This document shows positions 7,055 to 10,586 of a stretch of DNA of 64,000 nucleotides, one piece after another. A model generated the notes under the pieces. That model saw nothing but the letters and a program-made list of their open reading frames with translations, was not told the DNA's origin and did not search any database. The stretch covers positions 1,798,001 to 1,862,000 of the forward strand of contig NZ_LT629732.1 of assembly GCF_900104745.1 (NCBI RefSeq), written 5' to 3'. Every line of letters begins with the position of its first letter. Position 1 is the first letter of the stretch. The position numbers were made by a program, and so were the translations under genes. Source of the DNA: Actinopolymorpha singaporensis (lineage in GTDB: Bacteria > Actinomycetota > Actinomycetes > Propionibacteriales > Actinopolymorphaceae).

Positions 7055-7156
7055 CTCAGCACTTGCGTGGGTCTGTCGGGGCTGGCGCAAGGTGAAGTTG
7101 CTACCCGGGATTCTTCGTTGTGGGTAAGGGGTTTCCGGCGCGCGCGGGTCGATCTT

Positions 7157-7178
7157 GTTCGGTAGAATCGAACGCGTG
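7157..7178 (+). promoter_or_regulatory. Displaced leaderless promoter of the DUF222-HNH gene
   Basis: TAGAAT (7163-7168) is a good -10 hexamer, followed by 7 nt and then GTG at 7176-7178, the leaderless arrangement seen elsewhere in this window. GTTCG (7157-7161) and CGAAC (7169-7173) form an inverted repeat around the -10 box, a plausible repressor site. The GTG and following A belong to the target sequence now duplicated on both sides of the insertion sequence, so this promoter originally drove the HNH gene at 8619. It now reads a 31-codon junction peptide (7176-7271) into the insertion sequence. Confidence 0.55.
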
Positions 7179-7179
7179 A
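7172..7179. repeat. Target-site duplication, left copy
   Basis: ACGCGTGA directly flanks the left inverted repeat and is repeated exactly at 8615-8622 beyond the right inverted repeat. Eight base pairs is the usual duplication length for the ISL3 family. Confidence 0.92.
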
Positions 7180-7202
7180 CCCTCTCCTCGGCTTGGTGTG
7201 GG
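7180..7202 (+). repeat. Left terminal inverted repeat of the insertion sequence
   Basis: Twenty-three bases beginning CCCTCTCCTCGG match the reverse complement of 8592-8614 at 20 positions. The end abuts the 8-bp target duplication. Confidence 0.92.
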
Positions 7203-7337
7203 TTGCTGGCCGGGCCGGGAGGGGCGGTTGGTGTGGATGGCTTGGGGTGTGGGGTGCGGGGCGGGGCATGAAAGGACGCGCACGTGGTTGCCCTTAGGTT
7301 CTGGGTGTCGAATCCTTAACCGTCTGGAGCAACGCAC

Positions 7338-8606
7338 GTGCGCGTCAGCACAGTATTCAACCGCATCCTGGGTCTGCCCGGGGCATCGGTGTGCTCGGTG
7401 GAGTTCACCGGCGACGGCCTGGTTGTGGGTCTTCGGCGCCGGCGGGGTCGCCGCTACCGGTGCCCGTGTGGGTACTCGACCCGGGCCCGCTATGACATCT
7501 CCCGCCGCCGCTGGCGCCACCTGGACTTCGGGGCCACCAAGGTGTGGCTGGAAGCCGACATCGCCCGGATCGCCTGCCCCGCATGTGGGATCCGCACCGA
7601 GACCGTGCCGTGGGCGCGGCCGAACGCCCGGCACACTCGCGACTTCCAAGACGTGATCGGCTGGCTGGCCCAGCGCATGGACAAAACGAGCGTCGCGCGG
7701 CTGCTTCGGTGCTCGTGGGAAGCGGTCGACCGGGCAGTGAGAATGCTGGTGGCCGAGCACCTGCCCACCGACCGGCTGGACGGGCTGTATCGGATCGGGG
7801 TGGACGAGATCTCCTACAAACGTGGCCACCACTATCTGACCATCGTCTGCGACCACGACACCGGCCGGGTGGTGTGGGTCACCAAGGACCGCACCCGCAA
7901 AGCGTTCACCGACTTCTTCACCGCCCTGGGCCCTGACCGCAGCGAACAGCTCACTGCGATCACCATGGACGGCTCACCGATCTACATGCCCGTCGCCGAA
8001 GAGAACGCGCCCCAGGCCGCGGTGTGCCTGGACCCCTTCCACGTCATCAAGTGGGCCAACGAAGCCCTCGACAAAGCCCGCCAAGCCAACCCCGCCATAC
8101 CGCCCACCCCGGCCACGCCGATCAAGCGGTCCGGGCCGCTCACCGTGGCCGAACAGATCAACGCCCCCGCCAAGGCGTGGCGACGACTGAAGACAGCGCT
8201 GCGCTCAGGTGCTGAGAACCTCACCGACGAACGCCGCGCCCTCATCAACGCCCTGCGCCGCCACAACTACCAACTCTTCCGGTCGTGGACCCTCAAAGAA
8301 CAACTACGAGACCTCTACCGCATCCCACCCGAACAGGCCCGCCGATACCTCAAAAGGTGGATCATCCGCGCGTTCCGATCCACGATCCCCGCGATGCACC
8401 AACTGGCCACCCGCCTGACCAAGTACTTCGAACAAACCGTCGCAGCCGTCGAACTCGGCCTGTCCAACTCCCGAGCAGAAGGCATCAACAGCAAGATCCG
8501 AGTCATCCAACGCCGCGGCTACGGACACCCAGGACCCGACTCCCTCACCGCCATGATCTACCTCTGTCTCGGCGGGATCACCCTCAACCTCCCCACACAA
8601 ACCTGA
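7338..8606 (+). CDS. ISL3-family transposase
   Basis: A 422-residue DDE transposase. The N-terminal region has a zinc-ribbon-like pair (CPCG near residue 43, CPAC near residue 80) and an HTH-type helix around WLAQRMDKTSVARLL. The catalytic core carries the expected acidic residues: D in IGVDEISYKRGH, D in AITMDGSPIY with the nearby CLDPFHVIKWANEALD, and a late E in LSNSRAEGINSKIRVIQRRGYG, the ISL3 signature. The start is GTG 7338 with GGAG 8 nt upstream. The stop codon lies inside the right inverted repeat, so the gene reaches the element's end. It is intact and predicted active. Confidence 0.95.
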   Translation: MRVSTVFNRILGLPGASVCSVEFTGDGLVVGLRRRRGRRYRCPCGYSTRARYDISRRRWRHLDFGATKVWLEADIARIACPACGIRTETVPWARPNARHTRDFQDVIGWLAQRMDKTSVARLLRCSWEAVDRAVRMLVAEHLPTDRLDGLYRIGVDEISYKRGHHYLTIVCDHDTGRVVWVTKDRTRKAFTDFFTALGPDRSEQLTAITMDGSPIYMPVAEENAPQAAVCLDPFHVIKWANEALDKARQANPAIPPTPATPIKRSGPLTVAEQINAPAKAWRRLKTALRSGAENLTDERRALINALRRHNYQLFRSWTLKEQLRDLYRIPPEQARRYLKRWIIRAFRSTIPAMHQLATRLTKYFEQTVAAVELGLSNSRAEGINSKIRVIQRRGYGHPGPDSLTAMIYLCLGGITLNLPTQT

Positions 8607-8614
8607 GGAGAGGG
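8592..8614 (-). repeat. Right terminal inverted repeat, also carrying a Shine-Dalgarno
   Basis: This end overlaps the transposase stop codon (8604-8606) and contains GAGGAG at 8605-8610, 8 nt before the GTG of the HNH gene at 8619. The inverted repeat therefore supplies a ribosome-binding site to the downstream host gene. Confidence 0.88.
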
Positions 8615-8622
8615 ACGCGTGA
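8615..8622. repeat. Target-site duplication, right copy
   Basis: ACGCGTGA is identical to 7172-7179. Its GTG (8619-8621) is the present start codon of the DUF222-HNH gene. Confidence 0.92.
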
Positions 8623-10586
8623 GCGATGGCGGTGAGTGCTTCGACGGCCACCTGGGCGGGCAGCCCGGTGGCCGTCGGGTGCTGCCCGCGGGGTTTGCTG
8701 ATCTGCCGGCGGGTCCTGGGTTGGCGGCGGCGGTGGCGGGGGTCGACGTGGCTGGGTGTAGCGGGTTCGAGCTGGAGGAGCTGATCAAGGCACGGCGGCG
8801 GCTGATCTGCTGGCTGGAGGCTGAGTGCCTGGCCGCGGTGAACGAGTTGGCCTACGCCGAACCCGGCAGGGTTGACGGCCCGGCCGGACGCAGGGTCACC
8901 CCGGATCCGATGACCCCGGAGGTCCTCGAACCGCTGCTGGGGTGGACCGGGTACCGCGCGCACCAGTACGTGGCCCTGGCCGCCACGCTGCCCCGGCTGC
9001 CGCGGGTACGTGAGGCGTTGGCCAGCGGGCAGCTGGAGCTCAACGATGTGCGGGTGATCGTGGACCGGATCACCGACGCCGAACCCGATGTGTGGGGTGC
9101 CATCGAGGACGCGATCTTCCCCAAAGTCCTGGAACTGCGGGGCGGGTTGTTGCGGGCGAAGGTCGAAGCCGAGGTCGTCAAGGCAGACCCCGACGCCGCC
9201 GCCAAACGTCACCGCGCCGCCAGGTCCGGGCGCAACGTGGCGATCTGGCCCGCCGTCGACGGCGTCGCCGACCTCGCCATCCGCGGCCTGTCCGCAGACC
9301 AGGCCGCCGAAGCGTACGGCCACATCGACGCCATCGCCCGCGCAGTCAAAGCAACCGGCGACACCCGCACCCTCAGCCAACTCCGCGCCGACGTCGCCGC
9401 CGCCCTACTCACCGGCACCGCCGACATCGCCGACTGCTCGGTCCCAGCGCTCGCTGAACAAACGCACGGCGAAACCGAGCAGGACGAGGCTGGGCAGGAC
9501 GAGGTTGGGCAGGATGATGCGGAGCAGAAGCGGCCTGAGCAGGACGAGGCTGGGCGGGACGAGACGCGGCGGGACGAGAAGCCGCGGGAGACTGAGCAGT
9601 GCACCGCGGAAGGCGACGCCTGGCAGGAGCGCGGCGAGCAGGGGTGCTGTGCGGTACACCGGTACCCCGACCACGACCTGCACAGCGCCGGATGTGACTG
9701 CGGCGACTGCGCTCCCGCCGGAACCGCAAACACCACCGCCCACTACACCCCCTGCCACTGCTCCACCACGCACGACGCTGAAGCCCACGACGCCGCCGCG
9801 CGCGCCGCGGCCGCAGAGAATGCAACCGCTCGCACCATGGGGTCCAACACCTCCGGTCCCAACTCCGTTCTCCCCACCGCGGGTCAGATTCCGCGGCAGA
9901 ACCGCAGACCCGATGAGCCGGCCGACCCGCCGGGTCTGCCTGATCCGCCTGATCCACCGACAGGCAACCCGACACCACCAACACCACCCTGGTGCTCCTC
10001 ACAACCGAGCTGGGGTGCCATACGAACGCGCGCGAAGATCCAGCTGAACATCCCGCTCACCACCCTGATGGGGCTGTCCGCCCAGCCGGGTGAGCTCGGC
10101 GGGTTCGGACCCGTCATCACCGAGGTGGCCGCCAGGATCGTCGCCAACCACCTCGACAACCCCGAGGCGAGATTCAGTGTCGGGGTCACCCACCCGGTCA
10201 CCGGACGCTTGTTGCATCTGCATCCGCTACCCACCCGATTCCTGCGCGGGCTGCAGGCAGAGCTCGTGCATGCCCGCGACCAGCGCTGCGCATGGACCAC
10301 CTGCAGGAGACCGGCGGCGACCTGCCATCTGGACCACAACACCGAACACGCCCACGGCGGATCGACGTCTGTAGAGAACATCGCACCGCTGTGCCCGCGC
10401 CACCACAAGGCCAAAACCGACCGCGACTGGAAACTCCACCAGAGCGGACCCGGCGAACACACCCTCACCGACCCCCACGGCCGGCGCTACCGCAGCGGAA
10501 CACCATCCCTCACCGACCCGGCCGTCGATGACCCAGTGGTCAGCGCCACAACGGGAACGGCCGACAACGACCTACCGCCGTTCTGA
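8619..10586 (+). CDS. DUF222 / HNH endonuclease protein (13E12-repeat type)
   Basis: A 655-residue protein of the actinobacterial DUF222-HNH family. Residues 25-275 hold the helical DUF222 domain. Residues 285-330 are an expanded Glu/Gln/Asp/Arg-rich linker with an internal 60-bp periodicity, followed by a Cys/His-rich and Pro-rich linker. The C-terminus (about residues 555-600) is the HNH nuclease, with CHLDHNTEHAHGG, the N of SVENIAPLC and the terminal CPRHHKAKTD. Family role is uncertain; it is proposed to be linked to mobile repeats. The original leaderless promoter was separated from the gene by the insertion sequence, but the start codon was restored by the target duplication, and the element's right end now supplies GAGGAG. 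The gene is therefore not broken and may depend on transposase read-through. Confidence 0.9.
   Translation: MSDGGECFDGHLGGQPGGRRVLPAGFADLPAGPGLAAAVAGVDVAGCSGFELEELIKARRRLICWLEAECLAAVNELAYAEPGRVDGPAGRRVTPDPMTPEVLEPLLGWTGYRAHQYVALAATLPRLPRVREALASGQLELNDVRVIVDRITDAEPDVWGAIEDAIFPKVLELRGGLLRAKVEAEVVKADPDAAAKRHRAARSGRNVAIWPAVDGVADLAIRGLSADQAAEAYGHIDAIARAVKATGDTRTLSQLRADVAAALLTGTADIADCSVPALAEQTHGETEQDEAGQDEVGQDDAEQKRPEQDEAGRDETRRDEKPRETEQCTAEGDAWQERGEQGCCAVHRYPDHDLHSAGCDCGDCAPAGTANTTAHYTPCHCSTTHDAEAHDAAARAAAAENATARTMGSNTSGPNSVLPTAGQIPRQNRRPDEPADPPGLPDPPDPPTGNPTPPTPPWCSSQPSWGAIRTRAKIQLNIPLTTLMGLSAQPGELGGFGPVITEVAARIVANHLDNPEARFSVGVTHPVTGRLLHLHPLPTRFLRGLQAELVHARDQRCAWTTCRRPAATCHLDHNTEHAHGGSTSVENIAPLCPRHHKAKTDRDWKLHQSGPGEHTLTDPHGRRYRSGTPSLTDPAVDDPVVSATTGTADNDLPPF
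9477..9600 (+). repeat. Degenerate GA-rich tandem repeat inside DUF222-HNH gene
   Basis: The 19-mer GAGCAGGACGAGGCTGGGC occurs at 9477-9495 and again at 9537-9555, with shorter GGGCAGGACGAG-type copies between and after. It encodes an acidic/basic Gln-Asp-Glu-Arg linker. The purine bias differs from the flanking codons, suggesting slippage-driven expansion. Confidence 0.65.

Follow-up and report, generated by a model that had tools for sequence, protein, structure and literature searches.

An insertion sequence of the ISL3 family interrupts the start of a DUF222-HNH (13E12-like) gene in the window, the stretch of 64,000 nucleotides analysed here (contig NZ_LT629732.1), which comes from an Actinopolymorpha genome of 6.4 Mb. 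The best explanation for this arrangement, and a highly probable one, is that an actinobacterial branch of ISL3 selects the operator of the DNA-damage repressor LexA, the SOS box, as its target, and that here the start of the HNH gene was duplicated and a Shine-Dalgarno (SD) sequence added. Among the insertions that we read, a shared target specificity is restricted to one clade of transposases, the geometry of duplication and SD recurs, and the leaderless architecture of the DUF222-HNH genes is conserved.

Target specificity of the element and its relatives

Relatives of the window element were collected by transposase similarity and their insertion junctions were then read. The sample covered Actinopolymorpha, Saccharopolyspora spinosa, Actinoplanes, Dactylosporangium and a relative, a Rhodococcus opacus plasmid and five genomes of one further family. 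Sites scoring at least 10 of 12 for TCGAAC-N4-GTTCGA, the mycobacterial LexA box (PMC4181829), were found at 28 of 30 insertions (24 of 26 different sites), against a background for this score of 8 per 100,000 (99,997 flank positions). The target logo, TCGAACRYRYGTTCGA, holds nearly no information beyond these 16 bases; with its RYRY centre, the box becomes TCGAAC-RYRY-GTTCGA. The duplicated 8 bp are the box centre ACNNNNGT, corresponding to a cut TCGA^ACNNNNGT^TCGA, and the copies of this 8-bp target duplication are identical in the window element and in most others.

Maximum-likelihood analysis unites the SOS-targeting transposases in one clade (ultrafast bootstrap, UFBoot, 99; SH-aLRT 98), and target preference changed once on the tree in 98% of the bootstrap trees. 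The closest outsider to this clade, its sister L076, occupies an A+T-rich site, as do more distant ISL3 elements (transposase 35-47% identical), whose sites have box scores of 0-5. Thus, unlike the ISL3 relatives compared, the present clade uses the SOS box. The genome of S. spinosa contains one SOS-type element in a box as well as AT-type ISL3 elements in A+T-rich sites, which shows that host background alone does not decide the target. Orientation relative to the target gene was the same in ~13 cases and opposite in 6 by hand count, which is not a convincing bias.

Most of the neighbours of insertions that were scanned received a DUF222 assignment from Pfam. The other targets named by Pfam were dinB (L085), an NrdH-like glutaredoxin (L105) and DUF5131 (L106), and the copy on the Rhodococcus plasmid also lies 5' of nrdH. 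The two nrdH promoter regions are 84% identical, whereas the elements inserted in them at the same position are only 70% identical in DNA; since the elements are the more diverged, independent hits on the same box are most likely. Two insertions lie within coding sequence, one in a thioredoxin-reductase-like gene (L102) and one in another transposase (L069), indicating that promoter context is not required.

Anatomy of the insertion in the window

The features at the site are the following, all on the forward strand:

7163-7168, + strand: old -10-like TAGAAT of the HNH gene, followed after 7 nt by the old GTG and now directed into the element; seen in the sequence, promoter activity inferred
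7168-7179, + strand: left-hand portion of the interrupted SOS box, TCGA-ACGCGTGA
7172-7179, + strand: left target duplication ACGCGTGA, holding the orphaned old GTG start (7176-7178)
7180-8614, + strand: intact ISL3-family insertion sequence of 1,435 bp, recognised by target duplication, inverted repeats and ISL3 transposase
7180-7203, + strand: left inverted repeat, beginning CCCTCTCCTCGG; read outward, it also gives AGGAG
7338-8606, + strand: intact ISL3 transposase gene, 422 amino acids, TGA stop at 8604-8606
8591-8614, + strand: right inverted repeat, ending CCTGAGGAGAGGG
8605-8610, + strand: SD-like GAGGAG, 8 nt 5' of the rebuilt GTG and overlapping the transposase stop
8615-8622, + strand: right target duplication ACGCGTGA, holding the rebuilt GTG start (8619-8621)
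8615-8626, + strand: right-hand portion of the interrupted SOS box, ACGCGTGA-GCGA
8619-10586, + strand: DUF222-HNH (13E12-like) gene, 655 amino acids, open reading frame intact; assigned by HNH (PF01844) and paralogues

Within the window, ACGCGTGA occurs only at the two ends of the element, where the copies agree in 8/8 bases, and the terminal inverted repeats are imperfect, matching at 20 of 24 positions. The transposase is of the ISL3 family (PF01610, E 6e-57; PF13542 also above cut-off; NF033550, 278.8 bits with a cut-off of 180). With its DDE transposase, 8-bp target duplication and imperfect inverted repeats (~15-40 bp in ISL3), the element belongs to this family, and it resembles the actinobacterial branch in its ISL3 helix-turn-helix and its inverted repeats of ~24 bp. 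The preliminary description had claimed that the 8-bp target includes the GTG of the HNH gene, so that the duplication rebuilds it at 8619, that the inverted repeat supplies GAGGAG 8 nt before this GTG with the transposase stop adjacent, and that the old promoter now faces into the element. Indeed, the bases are as it described. Transposase and HNH gene share a reading frame, with the TGA stop and four codons between them (8604-8621). The middle of the HNH protein (DNA 9470-9600) is acidic and repeat-like (EQDEAGQDE...), and the paralogue alignments break there.

Comparison with the empty site, which the preliminary description had proposed for related strains, could be made within the genome but not between genomes. 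No orthologous empty site was found in the congeners searched; in five of them the peptidase neighbour is kept and the HNH gene is absent from this locus. Paralogues of the same genome were therefore used as the reference, and they give the inferred pre-insertion sequence: the predicted empty site GGTAGAATCGAACGCGTGAGCGATGG is unchanged in 5 uninterrupted paralogues (L004, L005, L011, L012 and L013), and L006 has a close variant of it. The DUF222-HNH gene is itself a dispersed repeat with a conserved leader of ~60-87 bp (7086-7171 and 8619-10586), present in many copies in the genus.

The genome holds a single further copy of the element (G000:C1:1974351-1975785), which differs from that in the window by 1 nt. 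It occupies the same nucleotide position in another DUF222-HNH gene, lies in reverse and has the same 8 bp duplicated. The two copies thus sit at one nucleotide of a 16-bp sequence, which indicates target selection. In the second copy the left end points toward the gene, and the same SD is supplied in the absence of transposase coupling. This second interrupted paralogue (L010 / L002, G000:C1:1972411-1974343) carries a stop and frame breaks, whereas the window copy is intact. A further copy, in A. rutila (congener G004), encodes a transposase 92% identical to that of the window.

The pre-insertion site as a predicted LexA operator

The pre-insertion site TCGAACGCGTGAGCGA is a predicted LexA SOS box, matching the consensus at 10 of 12 positions. 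In the same genome, exact copies of TCGAAC-N4-GTTCGA lie 5' of lexA, imuA', a Y-family polymerase gene and an Rv2578c-type gene, and a pattern search allowing at most one mismatch returned 90 occurrences of the box, compared with 14 for a backward control. In one group of DUF222 genes of this genome (L029, L031-L036), TTGTCGGTG-N8-TANNNT lies directly 5' of the SOS box and the leaderless start. This is the promoter motif linked to PafBC (PMC5656591, PMC6789036), and these nuclease-like genes may be controlled by both DNA-damage regulators.

Start codons and the acquired Shine-Dalgarno sequence

Leaderless transcription has been mapped in Mycobacterium tuberculosis, together with a rule for transcription start sites (PMC3898074). 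In every uninterrupted DUF222-HNH gene of our genome with a placeable start, TANNNT is followed after 6-7 nt by the start codon, and the SOS box spans this codon, with ATG or GTG in the box centre. The preliminary description had taken TAGAAT, 7 nt and GTG as a leaderless start that preceded the insertion, and the uninterrupted genes bear this out with the same layout. The prediction that the original gene was leaderless, on a TANNNT-N6/7-start architecture, is well supported.

In 9 insertions the duplicated 8 bp include the start codon of the target gene, and in 9/9 of them AGGAG stands 6 or 8 nt upstream, whichever end of the element faces the gene. AT-targeting ISL3 elements also carry CTCCT in this position, and the SOS-targeting ones of Dactylosporangium and Actinoplanes lack it. 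On this distribution we reject the idea that the SD arose as an adaptation for rebuilding starts. Judged by the repeats compared, it looks like an older, inherited feature of the inverted repeat that happens to suit, in other words an exaptation.

A hairpin over the transposase start

The beginning of the element carries two further features:

7275-7346, + strand: 12-bp inverted repeat (7275-7286 / 7335-7346) with the transposase start buried in the hairpin; fold z-score -3.95
7295-7300: -10-like TAGGTT in the hairpin loop

The same arrangement of hairpin and -10 element, made of other sequences, was present in most of the related elements examined. In IS10 and IS50, hairpins block translation of transposase from read-through RNA. 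Like these, the window element has an inverted repeat that flanks the likely transposase promoter and would hide the start only in transcripts entering from outside. The hairpin is thus likely to be folded by transcripts from outside promoters and not by the element's own, blocking read-through transposase. Such protection suits an element that lands in promoters.

Proposed mechanism and alternative explanations

We propose that the two cuts of the transposase lie 8 bp from one another about the middle of the box, dividing the operator and leaving each flank with 12 of its 16 bases. Because the leaderless starts of the DUF222-HNH genes in this genome lie in the box centre, the start codon is duplicated by the insertion. 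The gene is at the same time parted from its -10 element and operator, and the inverted repeat brings AGGAG to a distance of 6 or 8 nt from the rebuilt start. HNH protein might then be made, free of LexA control, on RNA that reads through from the transposase gene or, where the element is reversed, on a transcript that runs outward from it.

As to how the box is recognised, the likeliest mechanism is direct reading of its sequence by the transposase. Alternatively, LexA protein bound at the operator could recruit the transposase, and the motif would then reflect LexA occupancy. This would agree with the RYRY centre of the logo, which is as in LexA boxes, and with the many targets that are SOS-type promoters. 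However, direct reading easily accounts for a cut placed exactly at the box centre, which is less readily understood if LexA occupies those bases; the L102 and L069 insertions within coding sequence also speak against recruitment, although LexA could bind there too. We regard recruitment as unlikely. Slightly less likely still is the wider proposal that LexA guides transposition, or that its release times it, by which the element would sense DNA damage through its target and remove genes from the SOS regulon. It is hardly credible that DUF222-HNH genes themselves are what the element seeks, in the manner of a parasite of this dispersed gene family, with the SOS box there only by coincidence. 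The two copies of this genome, like the insertions read in Actinopolymorpha, do adjoin DUF222 genes, but dinB, nrdH (twice), DUF5131 and the targets in coding sequence have only the box in common, and even diverged DUF222 targets are alike in little but the box around the start.

The preliminary description had itself read the site as a chance landing on a leaderless start, which moved the gene to SD-dependent translation coupled to the transposase. All the local signals for this are present, but the whole subfamily selects such operators, and in the reversed second copy coupling to the transposase is impossible, which leaves chance landing with coupling improbable. A more serious competitor, which we rate a little below an even chance, is that the element merely parts the gene from its promoter, so that the rebuilt start and SD are without consequence and the HNH gene is silent. 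The insertion has severed it from its old promoter, the other paralogue that was hit contains an internal stop, and the hairpin of the element would limit translation from transcripts that enter it. Against silence stands the intact frame of 655 amino acids in the window, although a recent insertion would explain intactness equally well.

Several observations weigh against selection of the LexA operator followed by a rebuilt start. Two of the 30 sites (L069 and L072) score below 10, both with unequal target copies, which may reflect later small indels. Another insertion, L107, has an SOS-like half-site at each end, but the two are mismatched, possibly through recombination between two copies. 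The box in the window scores only 10/12, and the sample of 30 insertions includes several from identical copies within one genome. The genes beside several insertions in Dactylosporangium and elsewhere could not be assigned a name, so that only some of the targets are established as SOS promoters. Finally, LexA binding at any of these sites and the switch in translation are both read from sequence signals only.

Relation to known systems and implications

Insertion sequences that target repetitive extragenic palindromes (among them ISPa11, ISPpu9 and ISPsy8; PMC1525189) resemble the present clade in their high selectivity for a palindromic element. Here, in contrast, a global repressor's operator is the target, and it often contains a start codon. 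The mycobacterial 13E12/DUF222-HNH genes are LexA-regulated and have an SOS box (PMC5005354, PMC4181829), like the genes described here; unlike theirs, the present box overlaps a leaderless start codon and acts as an insertion target. No earlier report of an insertion sequence targeting SOS boxes was found in the literature searched, most subscription journals and ISfinder lying outside its scope.

Selection of a defined regulatory site is known from few simple insertion sequences. A clade with a preference for the operator of LexA, the main repressor of the DNA-damage response, would rewire SOS genes time and again; dinB, nrdH and DUF222-HNH nucleases are among those hit. LexA boxes in actinobacterial genomes would also be marked by its insertions. 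With L076 as a sister of different target, it should be possible to map the residues that determine which target a simple DDE transposase selects. The combination of start codon and SD suggests a way for an element that strikes a promoter to leave behind a translatable gene.

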